Shown here: positions 2,275-40,931 of the stretch, piece after piece | Layout: each line of letters starts with the position of its first letter | Numbering within the stretch: the stretch's first letter is position 1 | Origin: Acytostelium subglobosum LB1 | Lineage: Eukaryota; Evosea; Eumycetozoa; Acytosteliales; Acytosteliaceae | Assembly: GCF_000787575.1 (NCBI RefSeq) | Contig: NW_012236528.1 | Span: forward strand, 931,552 to 995,551 | Length of the DNA: 64,000 bases | Reading direction: 5' to 3' | The notes under the pieces: model-generated | The model's input: only the letters and a program-made list of their open reading frames with translations | Databases searched by the model: none | What the model was told of the DNA's origin: nothing | Program-made: the position numbers and the translations under genes

Positions 2275-4251
2275 TTAGCCACCCATTCCACCAATGATTG
2301 GCATAGCTTTCTTGTACTTTGAGTTAACATAGGAGCTGAAGAACTGTTCCTGTGGAGATGCAGAGTAGAAAATGAACTTGATCAAAGCCAGGACAACGAC
2401 GACGCCACTGGCAACAAGAGCGAATGGTCCACTCCAACTGGTGCCCCAGAACAGTGCCACAGCCGCTGCCAGATTGACGCCAAGTGCTGTCAGATCAACC
2501 AAGAGCGCGCCAACTTGGCCCTTCTTGAAGTCCTCGATGACATCCTCGACGAGGTTATAAGAGGCTACCAACAACAACACTGGTGTGAAGCGGGAAAGCA
2601 TGAACTTGGCGGCGTTGGCCGTGAAGACCACTGCCAGACACTTGGGCACGATCTGTGCCACTGTAGCGGGGGCCAAAGGTGCAAGCCTCGAGCCCACGAA
2701 AGCTGCAGTACGAGCAAACACCGATGTCACCAACTTGTTGCCACTCTTGAACATTGTGACCATATCAACTAACAAGCCGGTGGTCTCGCCGATCAGCTCG
2801 GGCTTCTCCCCATCTTTGAGGTGGTCCTTGTTGAGGAAGCCAAAGGTCACTGCGGCCGCCTGGCATACTCTGAAGACTGAGCAGAAGAATACCTTTACAT
2901 TCGTGTTGATATAGTTTGGCGCCAACTTGGTCTTGAACTTGGCGACCATGGATGATCCGAGGCGCTCGGCATAGGCGGCGGCCGTCTCGGCCAATTTTGG
3001 ACTCTCATTGCTCACAGTGTACATCACGGCGCGAGTTGCCTCTTGCATCTCGGTGATCAGTCCTGGGAAGCTGCCAAAGCCAGTTGTCAGGTGCTTCATC
3101 AATTCATAAAACTGGTTCTTGGTGTCTTTGTCCAGCTTGGTGAGCAGGTCCTTGATGACCAGGTTGATAATGTCGGTGCTGCCCTGGTTGTTGGTCATGT
3201 TATGCTCGTAGTAGCTGGCCATGGCCGTGTGAGTGATCCTGTTGATCAGCTTGGTGGACTGCACACTGGTCGGGTCGAGGATGTCCAGGACGATCTTGAT
3301 GTCGGTGATCCTGTTGTAGACGGCGACACTTGGGTCCAGGCCATCGTTGGCTTTGTCACTTTGGAAGCTTGATATGATGCTAGCCAGGTGTGTCTCGTCG
3401 CTCCAGTAGTTGACATAGAGGGTGGCGCACTTGGCAGCCTGGTCGAGGTAGTCCTCCATCTTGGGATACCTCTCGATGAAGGCGTACGTCTGAAGCAGCA
3501 TGGTCTGGTGGGCGTAGATCTGGCTGTCGCACATGGCCTGGAGATCGGCCTCGACCTTGTCCTTTAAAATCCTCCTTGAAGTGCCATCATCGCCGTTGGC
3601 CACCTTCATGGTGAACAGCAAGTTGGAGTAGTCTTTGTACCATTTCTGCTCGTTGGCGTCGTTGACAATGGACAGTCTCTTGGCATTGAGTGTTGGCTTG
3701 GTCTGTTCAAACATCTCTAGCACATCATCATCGGTAAAGTAGAGCACATTCTCCAAGAAGTACTTCTCGGCATTGGTCTTGACAATGTTGACATAGGGCT
3801 CGGGCTCGGGTTCGGGGTCGGTCTGGGCACCACCACTGCTTCCTCCACTGCTTCCTCCACCACCTTTACTGGGCTTTGTAGTATTTTCTCCAGCGTGTCC
3901 TTTGCCAAGAGGATGATCTAATGTACCAGCGCTAGGCTTTGAGCCCTTGCCACCCTCCTTTCCGGCCTTGCCGCCCTTTCCACCCTTTCCATCACCCTTT
4001 CCACCGTCAACTGGCACCACCACCTTTTCAAACACCGTGAAGCTGGCTAGAGAGGCAGTGATCTGGGCGTCGGTCTCGGTTGCCGCAGCAGCAGCTGAAG
4101 TAGTATCTCTCTTTGGGCGTGTTGATGATGCTGCTGCTGATGCATCAGCAGGATAAACTTTTGATCTAGCATTGATATAAGAGGCAAAGAATTGATTCCT
4201 TGCTGTTACTGCAGCTGAAGGAGCAGCTGCATTTGTATCATTTGATTGCAT
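2275..4251 (-). CDS. Unrecognised Gly-rich-linker protein, paralogue B (complete)
   Basis: A single-exon frame of 658 residues starting at ATG 4251. Regions in order: Ala/Thr-rich N-terminus containing QFFASYINARSKVYP (residues 20-34); a GKGG-type Gly/Lys-rich low-complexity linker at about 75-145; a conserved mostly helical body at about 150-560; and two strongly hydrophobic segments at about 581-602 and 607-629 that look like a transmembrane hairpin. The tail contains QFFSSYVNSKYKKAMP (636-651), a second copy of the N-terminal motif. There is no signal peptide. I do not recognise the family or assign a function. The tandem arrangement with paralogue A points to recent duplication. The divergence of the linker against the conservation of the body suggests the body is the functional part (inference). 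Confidence 0.88.
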   Translation of the reverse strand: MQSNDTNAAAPSAAVTARNQFFASYINARSKVYPADASAAASSTRPKRDTTSAAAAATETDAQITASLASFTVFEKVVVPVDGGKGDGKGGKGGKAGKEGGKGSKPSAGTLDHPLGKGHAGENTTKPSKGGGGSSGGSSGGAQTDPEPEPEPYVNIVKTNAEKYFLENVLYFTDDDVLEMFEQTKPTLNAKRLSIVNDANEQKWYKDYSNLLFTMKVANGDDGTSRRILKDKVEADLQAMCDSQIYAHQTMLLQTYAFIERYPKMEDYLDQAAKCATLYVNYWSDETHLASIISSFQSDKANDGLDPSVAVYNRITDIKIVLDILDPTSVQSTKLINRITHTAMASYYEHNMTNNQGSTDIINLVIKDLLTKLDKDTKNQFYELMKHLTTGFGSFPGLITEMQEATRAVMYTVSNESPKLAETAAAYAERLGSSMVAKFKTKLAPNYINTNVKVFFCSVFRVCQAAAVTFGFLNKDHLKDGEKPELIGETTGLLVDMVTMFKSGNKLVTSVFARTAAFVGSRLAPLAPATVAQIVPKCLAVVFTANAAKFMLSRFTPVLLLVASYNLVEDVIEDFKKGQVGALLVDLTALGVNLAAAVALFWGTSWSGPFALVASGVVVVLALIKFIFYSASPQEQFFSSYVNSKYKKAMPIIGGMGG

Positions 4252-32369: not shown

Positions 32370-34430
32370 CTAGAAGAATGAGAATGATGATGGAGATGAC
32401 ATGGTGTTTGGTGCGTTCTTGTTTGGATTGTTGTTGGTGTTGAAGTCACCGAATGGTGATGATTGATTCGAGAAAAATTGTTGCTGTTGCTGTTGTTGTT
32501 GCTGCTGCTGCTGAGGCTGGAATTGTTGGTTTCCACCGCCATTGAATTGATTGAATCCACCGCCACCGCCACCACTTGCAGCCTTTGGTGGGATGCCTGC
32601 TGATGATGGCATTACCATTGGAGTGGAGTTGGTGCCAAAGAAGTCATTGTTCATGCCCATGTTGTTGCCGCCCATGTTGTTGTTTCCCATGCTGCCCATG
32701 CTGCCCATGTTGTTCATATTGTTCATATTGTTGTTCTGGCTGCCCATTGGTGGGGAGAATGGGTTGGCAACCATACCATTGCTGGATGTGTTGTTGTTGA
32801 GGTTGGCGAATGGGTTTGAAGCAGTCTTGCTAACACTGCCTGGTCCACTTGAAGATGTTGGGTTGACGTTGAAAGTTGACTCGAATGGATTGGGCTTGGT
32901 TACACTGCCTCCATTACTACTGATTGCTGTATTGTTGCCACGCTGGGAGTTAGTTGGTGACACTGTATTGAAGTTGTTTGGTGTTCCAGTGCTTGGGCTG
33001 CTAGCAAATGGTGACAAGTTGGCGAATGCTATGATTGATCGGAATGGGTTAGGGAATCATTCCACTCTGGTCACTCACATGTACAATTACACTTACCTCC
33101 TGCGTAGTCCTTCTTCTCTGGTTGTTGAGGTTGCTGTGGCTGCAGTTGTTGTGCAAAGAATGGATTGCTCTGTTGTTGGTTGATGGCGCTGCTCTTGTCC
33201 CAATAGTCGAACCCTGGGTTGGCGGGCTGCTGTTGCTGCATCATCTGTGGCTGATTGAATGGTTGGTTGAATGGCTGAGGCTGGATGAATGGTTGTGGTG
33301 TTTGATTGAATGGCTGGGTTTGGTTGAATGCTTGGTTGAAAGGTTGCTGCTGCTGTTGAGGGTTGAATGGTGACTGTTGTTGCTGGTTGAACGGTTGCTG
33401 TTGTTGTTGCTGTGGGAACTGGAACTGTGACTGAGGAGGGGCCTGTTGAGGCACGCCCCATTGGTTGACACTTGTGCTCCATGGATTGTTGCCACCAGTG
33501 GACCATTGGTTAACCTGTGCGTTGTTGCTGAATGTGTTTGGTTGTTGTTGTTGTATTTGTGGCAGATGTGACTGTGGAGCTGGTGCTGGCGCGGGTGTGG
33601 GCGCTGAGAAGATGTCGGACAGGTCCAACAATGTATTGCTCTGTTGTTTGGGCTGTTGTTGCTTTCCATTGGCGCCTGGTTGGTCGAGCCAGAGGTTGGT
33701 CGAGTTGGTGTTGGATGTATTGTTGTTGTTGTTGTTGTTACCATTTCCATTGCTAAATGTCTGTGAGTTCCTCTTTGGATCGACGCGGATAGGAGGTATA
33801 TCATTGCCTAATATATTCGATAATGGTTCAACCTTGTGTTGTGCTGGGATAACATTGTTAAAGTTGTTGTTGCTACTGTTGTTACTGTTGTTGTTGTTGC
33901 CAAAGTTGCCAAAGTTACTGTTGCTACTGTTGTTGTTGTTGTGATGTGATGGAGCATGTGATTGAGCATGTGATGATGAACCTGCTGTATCGGCCCATTG
34001 CTTGTTGGTGTACTTTAGCTCAATGAAACGTCTGATCCTTGCGGAATCACCCTCTGCTGGCTCAGGGAAGTCCTCAGGTCTCCATCTTGCCAACCAATAT
34101 GCACGAGCAGCCTTGTTTCCACCATTCTGTATCTTTTGTATCTCCTCTGGTTTCCATGATCCCATTGATACAGACTTGCATCTTCTTCCCATGTTTGAAC
34201 TGTTCATTCATTCAATCATCCAATGTTAGTATGTGTGTTCATCAATCAAACATCATCAATGAATTGTGAACTTACTGTATTCCACTGCATGATTGACAGA
34301 CGAATGTAGCAAGCTCCAAACAGACGTATACTGGACCCTTCATTGAACAGTCCATACATCTCTTATTGTCATCCAATGTCATAAGATCACGAAGGATCTT
34401 CTCATTCTTATCAGCTCCTGGTTTGCTCAT
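32370..34430 (-). CDS. AGFG/AGD14-like ArfGAP-domain protein with NPF motifs
   Basis: Three exons: 34276-34430, 33097-34199 and 32370-33028 (638 residues). The zinc finger is C25-x2-C28-x16-C45-x2-C48, followed by SGIHSNMGRRCKSVSMGSWK and NGGNKAARAYW, which match the AGFG (Hrb)/plant AGD14 branch of ArfGAPs. The rest is Q/N-rich with many NPF-type and FN motifs (NPFFAQQ, SNPFAN, ANPFS) that bind EH-domain endocytic proteins. It is therefore likely an endocytic or Golgi trafficking adaptor. Oddity: the catalytic arginine expected at C48+5 (GIHR in plant homologues) is Ser53 in this splice form. The H52-S53 junction falls exactly on the first intron, so an error in my splice choice is possible, but the only good acceptor gives Ser. 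Confidence 0.85.
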
Positions 34431-34837
34431 GACTGATTGTTTGTTTGATTGATTGATATTTATTTATTTGTTGAACAAAGATATTATATTATATATGATG
34501 TGAATATAAAGATAAGGTATATGTAAAGAATATTTAAAGTATATGAATAAATGTAATGAATGAATGAATGATTGCCCAGGGTAAGTATCTATTTCATTCA
34601 CATCAGTCAATGTGGTGAGGGAAGATGCAACGTTGGAGAGTGCCTTCCACCACCCTCAACTTGCTCCAAATTAAAAAAAATTCGAAGGTTCTCAATTCTG
34701 CAAACAAACCACAATCGGGTCATATTTGATCGATTTGATTGATTGATTTTTTGGTGAAAGCACCATTCTACCTCACTACAACATTCCATGTCTATGTAGT
34801 AGTCTGGTGAGTTTGCTTTAATATTTATATATATATG
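34431..34837. other. Spacer between AGFG-like gene and myotubularin fusion
   Basis: 407 bp, AT-rich, with GATTGATT repeats near 34442-34456 and 34736-34746. It serves as the promoter of the AGFG-like gene and the 3' end of the fusion gene. No gene seen. Confidence 0.55.
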
Positions 34838-37800
34838 TTACACTAATGGACCACCAAAGTAGAACTTCTCCTTGGTCATGTGCCTCAGGTCAACATGATG
34901 GCCAACAACCCATCCTGATCCTCCGCCAGTGACAATGGGCGTGGCGCCATTGGCCCTATTGATGCCTCCACTAGTTGGTCGGTGTGACCCCAGTATGAAT
35001 CGTTGAGTTCTAGGCAGTCTAAGTCCTCTCCTAACAAACGACACTGATCTTGGCAACGACACCTCCTTGCCAAGTTGGATACTTGATGATGATGATTGAT
35101 TGATGTTGTTGTTGTTGGAGATGGACAACTTCTTGGCGTTGTCAGAGTTGGTCGTGGTCGTGGATGATGGCTTCAATGTGTTGTTGTTATAGATGATTGG
35201 CTTGTGATGATCTTGCAAAGAGTATGATCTACGATGTCTGTGATCCAGTTGTCTTCTTCGTTCGGCTGCTCGTGCAGTCGACACTTCAATTATTACAGGT
35301 GCTGGGGGTACGATTGTTGGGGGCAGCTGCGGCGGTCCACTAAGCATGCTTGGCGCCATTGATGGCCTTCGCTCCAATGATGATGTCGATGTGTTGATGA
35401 TGGTCGGACTGGACGAATTTGAAAGTGATGGCCGGGTTGACGTTGGTTCGAGACCAGTCGCATCATTGTCCTCGCCAGCGCTAGCCAGTGATGGTCGTGG
35501 TGATGTGGTCGTGGATGTCTGAGTCGAGTGTTGGTGATGTGATAGTTGCAGCTGTTGAGTGGCCTTGAGGTATTGATGGTTCTGGATCATCCATGAGTTG
35601 TGCAGCCATGTGTTCTGTGTGTCGCTGCGCATGTACAGCGCCTTCCACACCTCCATCGAGCGCAGGTTGAGGTTGGGTCGCAGCACAACGCCATCCTGCT
35701 GTGTCTGATAGAATGGATTCGTGAATCGCTCTATGTTCCTGTTGACATCGGTCCATATCGAGACAGTCTTGGTCTTGGCGTGCTTCTCAGCTCTCTCCTT
35801 CTCGCAGTTGTACAGGAATGTGCCATACTTGCATGAGAAGAGGTGTTCGGCAATGAATTGCAGTAGAGCGGGAGTGTACTCAAACAGCAGAGGGAACTGA
35901 TTGACCAGTTGGAAGAGGCAATCGAGGAACTGGATGAAGATGGGCGAGCGCTCCTCTTCCAGCTCGTGCAGATGGCCAAGTCGCTGGGTGAACTTGTGGC
36001 CAAAGGACAGCCACTCCTTTTCGATCAGTACCTCCAGTCCGACGATCGTGCGATAGTACTGGTCCAGGAGAACCTGCGCCAGGGATGTGAGTTGGGGAGT
36101 ACGGTCCCATCCGTCGCTGCAATGCACCAGCACACTGATGTTCTTTTGGATCAGCTCGGCAACGTACACGCCGCCCGCCAGACAGCCACGCACATGGTTC
36201 AGCCAGTTGCTCTCTTCGATTGCCGACAGGTGCTTGCCGTCGCCGTCGCCCCCATACGGTGACATGGTGGCGACCAGCTTCTCGAGACTGCGGCGCATTA
36301 CGTGGATGTTGGCAATGTTTAGGAATACCAGCTTGCAGTTGGGATAGTTGGAGATGTTCTCAAAGCCTGCGCCATTCGCCGTGTTGGCAATGGCATTGAG
36401 CTTGGGACGAGCATCGATCAAGTAGACTGGGCGCTGAGTGGACAGCTCCGTCATGTACATCTCGTCCTCGGGACATCGTGTACGCTCGAGGCCCACCAAT
36501 GGCTGACTGCAACGGGTGATTGATGCGCCACTTGGTGCGCGCCAGGACAATGCAGGGATGCGACCCTTGCTCCGGAAGCCAAATACACGCTCCAGGTCCT
36601 TGTCGAGCATGACACGTGGCACCACAATGCTGCTGGGATACGTTGGACACAGCTTGTACTCCTTGTTCAAAGTTGTGAATCTCCAGTACAGATTGTTGTT
36701 GTTGACACTGTTGTCCAGACTGTTGTGGCTGATGTTGTGACCTCCGCTGTTGGCGCCATCCATGAAGATGCCAAATCGTTGGTACTCGCGTCGTACCGAG
36801 TATATGTTCCAGCCATTGTCCTCCTCGACTGCGGGACAATGTAAGAAGTGAGCAAAGAGATAGGGCATGGGGTCTTCAAAGATGCCGTAGCATTCGTAGC
36901 GATCGATGTGCTGCATTCGGTTCTCGTCATCCAGATGTATGTTGTCGTGAGCGATCTTGAGCTGCAATTGTCGATTGCCTTCGTTATGCTTCATGCTGTG
37001 CTCGATCATTGATTGTGAGTGATGTGAGATGACCTCTATGACGCGATCGCGCGTCACCTGTGACGTGAAGTAGAGCTTGCAGTTCCTGTAGTCCTTGGTT
37101 GTGATTGTGAGCGAGCAATAGGTCGATGATGATGGTGGTGGCGTCATTGACAGTGATGCTCCCAAGGACGTTGTCGACGACTGCTGAACATTCAATGAGG
37201 ATGAGTTGGGAGTGAGCGAACCATTGGGTGTGTGTGAGCCGCTGTGCGAGCCAGACGACGAGAGTGGAGGCGTCTGTGGTGGGGCAGCCAGCTGTTGTGA
37301 CAACATCAGTTGCTGCTGCTGTTGGGAGTCGGCCGGAATGACAACATAGCCAGACTGCTGTGATGAGGTCGGCTGAGTGGTGGTCGTCGTGTGGATGTGA
37401 TTGTCAGATGTGAACGAGTCGATTGAAAGAAGGGGTATGGTCATCTCCTCGGACTCGCCAAATGGCCATCGCAACGAGTATGTCTCATGATTGATGGGTG
37501 CGGTCGATGCATCGCTGCGGAACACCACCCTATAGTTTGTGACAAAGATCCTGCCCGACACCAACTGAATCGAATGTCCAACCAAGAACTGATCGCTCGA
37601 CTGATGGAATACCGAAGCATTCTTTCCAATATAACAACTTGCCATCTTATCATTAAACAGTATATACTCTCCACAGTTGGCTATCCTCTCTTTGATTGAT
37701 TGTGTATGTGTTGGTTAGTAGGGACGTTGAGTTGTAGCATGTGACTGACGCCATACCATTGAAGAATTGAATGATTGAAGTGTTCTTGGACTCTTTGGCC

Positions 37801-39031
37801 AACTCGAGAGGTGATGGGAAGTTGTTTGAAGGTTGTTTGGTAAAGATGGCACCATACTCGAGGAATAGTTCCAGGAGGTCCACCCTCCCTTCCTCTATAG
37901 CGTAGTGCAAGCATGTCTTTCCTCGCCTAATGACCATATAGAGAGTGAGTTGGCGTCCAAATCAATCATGGATAATAGTACATACTTATTGAAGATGTTT
38001 GGATTCGCGCCATGTTCTAGGAACACTTTGATAAGGTCTAGACTGTTACTGCTATTGTTGTAGGTGCGCATCATCACTCGTGTGTTGGTGGGGCAGCCAG
38101 AGATGTCACCAGATATAACTACATAGGTTTGGAGTGTGGCGCGATGTAGAGGTGTCTCAAACTTTGTATCCTTGTGATTGATGAATGCTCCACCATCCAG
38201 CAACTGCACGGCCAGTTTACACGCCTTGGGATGATGAGAGTATTTGGCCAACAGATGCAGAGGAGTTGATCCACTGACAGTTCTCGAGTTTGGGTCTGAG
38301 CCCTTTGCCAACAGTCTCTCTGCCACCTCAAAGTGTCCACCATTGATCGCACAATGCAGTCCAATATATCCATCCTTATCCCTCATTAACAGTGGCTTGA
38401 CTTCCTCAAGGTTGATGTACTAATGGTGGGGAGGGAGGGTCAGTGCATGTCACTCAATCAATCAATCAATCACTTCACATTACTTTACCTTCTTCTTTAG
38501 ACATTGCCTGATGACATATTCATTTCCATGCATTGCAGCCAAATGGAATAGGGTCTGTTCATTGCTATTCTTTAGATCGAGTGCATGTTTCTTGAGATGT
38601 TCCTTTATAGCATGTTTATCATTGCTCTTGGCCATTGTCTCCAATAGACTGAGTGATGATGTTGCAGCTGCATTACTCAAATCCTTAAGGCTTATATCCT
38701 TTGTACTATTACTATTATTACTGTTGTTGTTGAAGCCACTGCTTGTTCCACTGAAACTACCACTATTACAATTGGCTTCTTTGCTGGTTGTGACTGATGG
38801 TGCAGGTGTCTGAGTATGTGTCTGTGTCTGTGTTTGTGTTGTTGTGAGTGATGGTGTAGGTGTTGGTGTTGCTGTAAGAGTAGGTGTAGCTGTAGGAGTG
38901 GGAGTAGGAGTAGGAGTAGGAGTAGTTGTCGGAGTAGTGGTTATTGAAGGTGCTGGAGTAGGAGTTGTATCAAGATCAGACATTGTTGGAACAATGTTCG
39001 ACGGTACCGACGTCGAAGTTGGTGTGTCCAT
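34838..39031 (-). CDS. Ankyrin-repeat / GRAM / myotubularin phosphatase fusion
   Basis: Four exons: 38489-39031, 37986-38419, 37757-37926 and 34838-37689 (1332 residues). Regions: a TP/TPT-rich disordered N-terminus to about residue 120; ankyrin repeats (TLFHLAAMHGNEYVIRQCL, GLHCAINGGHFEVAERLLAK, TPLHLLAKYS, TPLHRATLQ, TCLHYAIEEGRVDLLELFLE); a PH-GRAM domain beginning NCGEYILFNDKMASCYIG and including GRIFVTNYRVVF; and an active myotubularin domain with HCSDGWDRT (catalytic Cys about 906), followed by a Ser-rich tail. Myotubularins remove the 3-phosphate from PI3P and PI(3,5)P2. The third intron is 67 nt. Two in-frame acceptors exist (exon start 37689 or 37680). A stand-alone myotubularin start at 37645 would lie 8 bp from the end of the ankyrin frame and cut the GRAM domain, so one gene is favoured. 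Confidence 0.82.
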
Positions 39032-39267
39032 GATAATATGTGGTTGTGAATGAAGACCAATAAATATATAATGAATATAGTAATGAATGAATGAATGAAA
39101 GTAAATAATGCAAAGAGTAAACAATTGTAGTTGTGATCAATTCAAGTTGTGTTGAGTTGGAGAAAGGATTAAGGACTTGAATCTGAAATCAATCGGTTGA
39201 TTTGCAAAAATTGCAAAAACAGATGTGTTGACGACATTCGATGATTGGACTTTGAGTAAGTTGAGTT
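39032..39267. promoter_or_regulatory. Divergent promoter, ankyrin-myotubularin / cdk10
   Basis: 236 bp separating two divergent start codons. AT-rich, with an ATGA repeat near 39083-39098. No recognised element. Confidence 0.5.
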
Positions 39268-40931
39268 ATGATGATGTTGGTAAGTGATCATACAATGATT
39301 GTACCTTACACCTATGATGATGAAGATGATGATGACATTGTTTACAACGACAAAGTTCACTCTAATGCTGCTGCCACTACTACAGCTTCTGTTAATATAA
39401 CAGAATCAGATGACAACAACAACAACAACAACATTGACAAAGATAAGGCTCAATTGCCCATGGCAACTACTACCTCAACAATAAGATCAGTCAGTTCGTT
39501 TGAGAAACTTGATTGTATTGGAGAGGGTACCTATGGTATCGTGTGTAAGTATCATGACGCCATCACAATGACATTCCCAACCTCACTCACTCATTCAATC
39601 AATTAAACAGACAAGGGTAGGGACAAAGACACTGGACGCATTGTGGCACTCAAGAAGGTCAAGATGGAGAAGGAGAAAGATGGCATGCCATTGGTATGTA
39701 TAGTCCATTCCCCTTTCTTTCGCGAGATAGTCTCCCAAAGTCCTAACATACCAATACATATCTCAATCCAGACATCATTGAGAGAGATAGAGTTGCTCAA
39801 ACAATTGAATCATCCTAATATTGTACGTCTACTTGAGGTCGTTGTTGGATCAAGCGTGGACAGTATCTACTTGGTGTTTGAATACGTCGAGCATGACATT
39901 GCTGGTAAGAAGCGAATCAATCAGTCTCAGTCTTTGATTGAATGAGTTACTAACTTCCATTGTAGCATTGGTGGATCACATTAACAAACCATTCAAAGAG
40001 TCCGAGGTCAAATGCTTCATCCTACAACTTCTCAAGGCTGTTGAGTATCTCCATGCGCGATGGATCATCCACAGGGATTTGAAGTGCTCAGTAAGTGTCC
40101 CCTGCCTCGATCAATCAATCAATCAATCAATCAATCATACTCAATCAAATGAACTCAATAGAATCTATTGTATGGCAATGATGGATTCCTCAAGCTGGCG
40201 GACTTTGGATTGGCACGCAAGGCTGGACACCCAGCCATTCACTTGACACCAAAGGTCGTCACATTGTGGTATCGTGCACCAGAGATATTGTTGGGCGACA
40301 GCAAGTATACACCGGCAATCGACATATGGGCCGTAGGTTGTATATTTGGCGAGTTATTACTTGGCAGTCCATTCATCAATGGCAACAATGAGATTGAACA
40401 ACTTAAGAAGATATTCTACCTGCTTGGCTCACCAAACAATCAAATATGGCCAGCCTATTCATCACTTCCATTATCCAACAAACTGGACATCACGCACTAT
40501 CCCTACAGTAACCTACGCAACAAACTATCACAATACAGTAATAACTGTATTGACCTTATGAACAAGCTATTGGTATGTAGGATACATGGCGCGGTCTGGA
40601 ATCACTCACTCACTCGATCAATCAAACATTGTAGACATATGATCCAATGAAGAGATTGACTGCTAGTGAAGCATTGAGACATCCGTATTTTAATGAGAGT
40701 CCATTCCCTCAGTCAATTGATAAGATGCCTAGGTTTCCAGTATTGGATAAACATCTTTCAAAAGAGAAGTACCATGAACAACATCCAAAGCATCATGGTA
40801 CGTTGACGACTACAACTACGACTACGACTTCATCTACAACTTCATCAAAGTCCAAACGAACTATTATGGATCACCACAATATCAATGGAAGTGAACAACA
40901 ACATGTGTTCCCTCGATACGACCTCCGATGA
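39268..40931 (+). CDS. cdk10: Cyclin-dependent kinase 10 orthologue
   Basis: Six exons: 39268-39544, 39611-39693, 39772-39904, 39966-40090, 40162-40572 and 40635-40931 (441 residues). An acidic/poly-N N-terminal extension precedes the kinase: [34 protein letters not shown] with the cyclin-contact helix [27 protein letters not shown]-loop [13 protein letters not shown], then [11 protein letters not shown]. The combination of DGMPLTSLRE and [14 protein letters not shown] fits CDK10 rather than CDK1 or CDK11. CDK10 with its cyclin partner acts in transcription and G2/M control. Three ATGs in a row open the frame, and I used the first. All introns are 61-78 nt. A Thr-rich tail follows the kinase domain. 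Confidence 0.9.
40111..40138 (+). repeat. CAATCAAT repeat in cdk10 intron 4
   Basis: Seven uninterrupted TCAA units in the intron 40091-40161, on the sense strand and upstream of the acceptor. Confidence 0.85.

Follow-up and report, generated by a model that had tools for sequence, protein, structure and literature searches.

The usual view is that myotubularins are positioned by their PH-GRAM, FYVE, DENN or coiled-coil parts. A 30-genome survey lists ANK among the myotubularin accessory domains with a suggested role in protein contacts, associates the HCSDGWDRT-type signature with active subunits, counts nine active myotubularins in D. discoideum, a member of the survey set, and reports a myotubularin-LRR-Roc-COR-kinase arrangement from Amoebozoa only (Kerk and Moorhead 2010, PMC2927912). 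Dictyostelium Mtm6 is described as degrading PI(3,5)P2 and PI3P and being recruited to one site (PMC8855053). ORP1 is an ANK-PH-ORD protein whose ankyrin domain binds Rab7, placing ORP1 on late endosomes (PMC6363164), and a T. cruzi dual-specificity phosphatase, which is not a myotubularin, carries an ankyrin domain (PMC2175518).

A keyword literature search, mostly at listing level, returned no report of an ankyrin-myotubularin combination beyond PMC2927912, and the word ankyrin is absent from the portions of PMC6563779 and PMC2443395 that were covered. An earlier note on this DNA had called an N-terminal ankyrin array on a 3-phosphoinositide phosphatase an arrangement not familiar from animals or fungi. 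ANK on myotubularins was already listed in the 2010 survey (PMC2927912), which gives the species in figures, and the combination is unusual but not unprecedented.

Layout of the gene and likeness to described proteins

The window, meaning the whole 64,000-nucleotide stretch of Acytostelium subglobosum LB1 DNA that was analysed, holds an ankyrin-myotubularin gene on the minus strand, from 39031 to 34838. Splicing joins an ankyrin array at the N-terminus to a PH-GRAM domain and a myotubularin phosphatase, and at the level of sequence this fusion is confirmed as real; the probability of one fused gene encoding an ankyrin array and a myotubularin-family enzyme is put at about 0.9. The initial four-exon model (39031-38489, 38419-37986, 37926-37757 and 37689-34838) comprises 3999 nt, encoding 1332 aa plus a stop, and a five-exon model of 3927 nt and 1308 aa is likely the better one. 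The features of the latter are as follows, in window coordinates.

38489..39031, minus strand: exon 1, with the start codon, a Thr/Pro-rich low-complexity N-terminus and the first part of the ankyrin array
38420..38488, minus strand: intron 1, 69 nt, GT..AG, matched in protein position by an intron of the paralogue
38110..38419, minus strand: exon 2, ankyrin repeats
38038..38109, minus strand: probable further intron, 72 nt, GT..AG, stop-free if retained; not in the earlier model
37986..38037, minus strand: exon 3, ankyrin repeat
37927..37985, minus strand: intron, 59 nt, GT..AG, likewise matched in protein position by a paralogue intron
37757..37926, minus strand: exon 4, final ankyrin repeats with the C-terminal cap
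37690..37756, minus strand: junction intron, 67 nt, GTATGG..TCAAAG; absent in the paralogue, where the joint lies within one exon
34838..37689, minus strand: exon 5, encoding PH-GRAM (which holds a low-complexity insert), the myotubularin phosphatase and a low-complexity tail, then the stop
37646..37689, minus strand: start of PH-GRAM upstream of the first Met of exon 5, ERIANCGEYILFNDK, its first codon split by the junction intron; agrees with the paralogue at 12 of 15 aligned residues
35792..36829, minus strand: phosphatase domain with HCSDGWDRT, placed by converting the PF06602 match at C52:967343-968380

The domain search proposed in the earlier note, run with Pfam on the joined 1332-aa protein, returned Ank families, GRAM and Myotub-related. 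Tandem ankyrin repeats are present in the window copy, with PF12796, PF13637, PF00023 and others above their cut-offs (best 6.9e-25, best stretches between residues 133 and 352); about five repeats plus capping half-repeats were counted by eye. In a search of solved structures, the array resembled generic ankyrins and designed repeat proteins, with no hint of a partner among the best 60 of 344 sequences. GRAM (PF02893, residues 399-471) passed weakly on the whole window protein, with 23.9 bits against a cut-off of 23.6. Myotub-related (PF06602, residues 670-1015) reached 430.9 bits against a cut-off of 25, and no domain was recognised by Pfam in the C-terminal tail after the phosphatase. The Thr/Pro-rich N-terminus, the GRAM insert and the tail are low-complexity sequence. 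AlphaFold2 run without an alignment gave a mean pLDDT of 36.8 for part of exon 5 (663 aa) and 35.6 for the ankyrin exon (144 aa, including the 24 residues of the extra intron).

Like the active myotubularins, human MTMR2 and its kin, the window protein carries an HCSDGWDRT phosphatase after PH-GRAM. It matches human MTMR2 structures over the phosphatase (E 1.3e-109) and is strongly similar to MTMR2, MTMR1, MTMR6 and MTMR8 chains over the catalytic domain; the MTMR2 alignments over PH-GRAM scored -3.2 bits, without significance. Unlike them, it has an N-terminal ankyrin array and a low-complexity insert inside the PH-GRAM region, and by Pfam it has no C-terminal FYVE or other domain. Mtm6 is a likeness by its described activity as an active myotubularin (PMC8855053), not by sequence, and the ANK myotubularins of Kerk and Moorhead are likened by description only, in having ankyrin in a myotubularin homologue (PMC2927912). 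ORP1L, also compared by description and not by sequence, shares only the layout of N-terminal ankyrins, PH domain and lipid-acting domain (PMC6363164), but is a lipid-transfer protein rather than a phosphatase.

A second ankyrin-myotubularin gene with the same domain order, L013, was found on contig C53 when the assembly that contains the window (30.7 Mb, 56 contigs) was searched with an ankyrin-GRAM query. In L013 a single uninterrupted frame of 888 aa from stop to stop spans the final ankyrin repeats, GRAM and phosphatase; the first part of this frame is the end of an intron. Identity between the two copies is 71.2% over 226 aligned ankyrin residues, 55.0% over 258 residues of PH-GRAM and linker, 74.8% over 365 phosphatase residues and 25.4% over 169 tail residues; the Thr/Pro-rich N-terminus of exon 1, more than 100 aa long, is lacking in L013. 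Pfam found Ank, with five PF00023 stretches, and Myotub-related in the paralogue as in the window copy; the paralogue's GRAM scored 15.4 bits, below the cut-off of 23.6. HCSDGWDRT (HCSDGWDR, CX5R) is intact in both copies, and the 3-phosphatase is, judging by this motif, most likely active. With the unbroken paralogue, the motif and the domain matches in hand, the central claim of the earlier note, an ankyrin array and a myotubularin with an intact catalytic motif in one gene, is borne out, 'active' being read from the motif.

The ankyrin/myotubularin joint and a further intron

The two frames adjoin on the same strand, as the earlier note described. Read through, the ankyrin frame meets a stop at 37655-37653, and a product with the junction intron retained would end TINQREDSQLWRVYTV; the myotubularin frame has its first ATG at 37645, with 7 nt between that stop and this ATG, and no other ATG was found between the end of the junction intron and 37645. 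Unspliced frames that end and begin so close together are what two adjacent genes would give, one encoding an ankyrin protein as far as 37653 and the other a myotubularin from 37645 on. Frame arithmetic alone is weak evidence for a fusion, since the region of the junction offers 39 GT..AG pairs, with acceptors 40-199 nt beyond the donors, that leave an open frame. The fusion is accepted because L013 carries the same joint within one open frame, which is independent proof: it reads AKESKNPNIIQFFNERIATCGEYILYNEK where the window copy has AKESKNTSIIQFFN/ERIANCGEYILFNDK. Splicing 37756-37690, an intron that ends CAATCAATCAAAG, gives the paralogue's joint without a gap, and this pair scored best against the paralogue, with 538 over 520 for the runner-up. 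The 67-nt intron that the earlier note had proposed to join both frames exactly is upheld in its coordinates.

Conservation around the joint also speaks against two genes. Over the 15 aligned codons that immediately precede the first Met in the last exon, protein identity is 80% (12/15) and identity at the three codon positions 93/87/60%; for the 16 codons leading up to the joint the figures are 75% (12/16) and 88/94/25%. Both sides of the joint, as read from these values, show coding patterns of conservation. With an AT content of 0.60, the segment 37645-37760 falls inside the gene's exon/intron range of 0.48-0.63 and below the 0.67-0.69 of the flanking intergenic DNA. Two separate genes are hardly credible on this evidence. 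A misassembly would need the same error twice, in the window copy and the paralogue alike.

The codons upstream of 37645 had been credited with restoring the start of the GRAM domain, a statement that holds in substance. That they are coding is judged from paralogue conservation, not from Pfam: on a fragment, PF02893 scored 29.0 bits from the Met and 29.4 bits with the upstream codons, over profile positions 20-61 both times, so that this part of the claim gained little from the profile. Two other myotubularin-like loci, L018 (LIPGEHIIL) and L020 (LAGEFTVL), have Gly-Glu at a comparable position ahead of the GRAM strand motif.

The four-exon coding length is a multiple of three, as had been claimed, but the number of exons is probably five. 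The stretch 38109-38038, which encodes 24 residues within an ankyrin repeat in the four-exon model, is in frame and stop-free if retained and is therefore invisible to length and frame checks. It is likely spliced out as a further intron. In L013 the 24 residues are missing, and an intron sits there or close by. When the stretch is spliced out of the window copy, the full-length score against the paralogue rises from 3129 to 3163, or from 3123 to 3147, for two splice choices in the paralogue, and the joints match, with TYVVIS/DLIK in the window copy and GYVMDS/NLIK in the paralogue. That the four-exon model is right and the stretch is a coded 24-residue loop in the repeat appears doubtful in the face of these results, even though the stretch is open in frame and would have GTGACA as its donor, a less common form than the GTA of the gene's other introns. 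The 72-nt intron is likely, though not certain, and its exact site is tentative: among 25 stop-free GT/GC..AG choices in a local test, the best scored 492 and a GC-donor alternative 491, almost equally, against 468 for the unspliced form, and the paralogue splice at this site has a second possible form, GTATGT..CATCAG. The gene model is corrected in this respect; automatic annotation could split this gene or keep the 72-nt intron.

Possible roles of the ankyrin array

The proposed protein of about 1308 aa would run from the Thr/Pro-rich N-terminus through ankyrins, PH-GRAM and 3-phosphatase to the low-complexity tail. The phosphatase most likely removes the 3-phosphate of PI3P and PI(3,5)P2, the substrates expected from its membership of the myotubularin family. 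Targeting of the enzyme by the ankyrin array is the reading we lean towards: the array would most likely serve as a protein address, binding a membrane-anchored partner, e.g. a Rab-type GTPase, and the enzyme would act on membranes that offer both this partner and the lipid recognised by PH-GRAM.

The array enters PH-GRAM with almost no linker in both copies, and the alignment of the copies stays gapless until 15 residues past the joint, where a single residue is skipped; this suggests that array and PH-GRAM may form a single stiff unit. The same near-absence of a linker, gapless between the paralogues, would suit an array that regulates the phosphatase as an intramolecular lid or a dimerisation surface, replacing the C-terminal coiled coil of the animal enzymes. 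Pfam recognises no domain after the phosphatase, and coiled coils are described as sporadic outside animals in PMC2927912, both of which fit such a replacement. The structural models that bear on it are of low confidence (pLDDT 36.8 and 35.6), and the ankyrins of the two lipid-binding proteins that PMC6363164 describes with such repeats, ORP1 and Osh1, serve membrane targeting; regulation by lid or dimerisation is unlikely, and targeting stays the preferred reading. More speculative by a good margin is a rigid coincidence detector made of array and PH-GRAM, which would need a specific membrane protein and a phosphoinositide together for the 3-phosphatase to act, with retention of the junction intron in the window copy possibly releasing an ankyrin-only protein. 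If such retention occurred, the address would be separated from the enzyme, and in the window copy only, the paralogue being without a junction intron. The active-type pair could offer a tractable amoeba system for how 3-phosphatases get assigned to endosomes, macropinosomes and the leading edge.

Other myotubularins of the assembly and neighbouring genes

A family search of the assembly gave 24 matches, grouped into 18 myotubularin-like loci (window, L013 and L014-L029); no myotubularin match was found in 14 control genomes. HCSDGWDR is present in 10 of the 18 loci (window, L013, L014, L015, L024-L027, L016 and L018), HCTEGWDR in one (L028) and HCISGWDR in two (L022 and L023), and no intact catalytic motif was seen in the remaining five (L029, L017, L019, L020 and L021). 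The HCISGWDR loci, L022 on C50 and L023 on C49, both carry VHCISGWDRTP and presumably resemble MTMR14-type phosphatases. In a tree built from the 14 myotubularin rows that were long enough, the window copy and L013 pair (96/90) at a path of 0.34, against 1.34 to the next row; six of the 11 inner branches are open and the deeper order is not settled. L029 (C40) and L026 (C56) also pair in the tree (100/100), with YCADGSDQT in L029 and HCSDGWDRT in L026, and are perhaps an active and an inactive member of a pair from duplication.

Among the 18 loci, a detected ankyrin match lies within 4.8 kb only for the window copy and L013. The ankyrin-GRAM query gave 57 matches, and those outside both genes are near no other myotubularin locus, the closest being 4.8 kb away on C37 (opposite strand) and 10 kb away on C56 (same strand); this count is a lower bound, as the query was this array and divergent ankyrins could be missed.

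L017 (C53:355500-362500) is pats1-like, with a divergent myotubularin without the active motif, LRR, Roc, COR-A, COR-B and the start of a kinase. Its presence accords with a dictyostelid source. Proteins of this IMLRK/pats1 type, like the window protein, are amoebozoan myotubularins with added interaction domains, and L017 is one such gene in this assembly; theirs is an inactive phosphatase with LRR-Roc-COR-kinase, whereas the window protein has ankyrins and an intact motif, and Pfam found none of the LRR-Roc-COR-kinase domains in it.

Downstream of the ankyrin-myotubularin gene and on the same strand, 33071-34463 encodes an ArfGap domain in two frames with an Asn/Gln-rich tail, a gene that is probably split by an intron. 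The divergent upstream neighbour, 39265-40246, contains a protein kinase in pieces (Pfam on 39607-39942).
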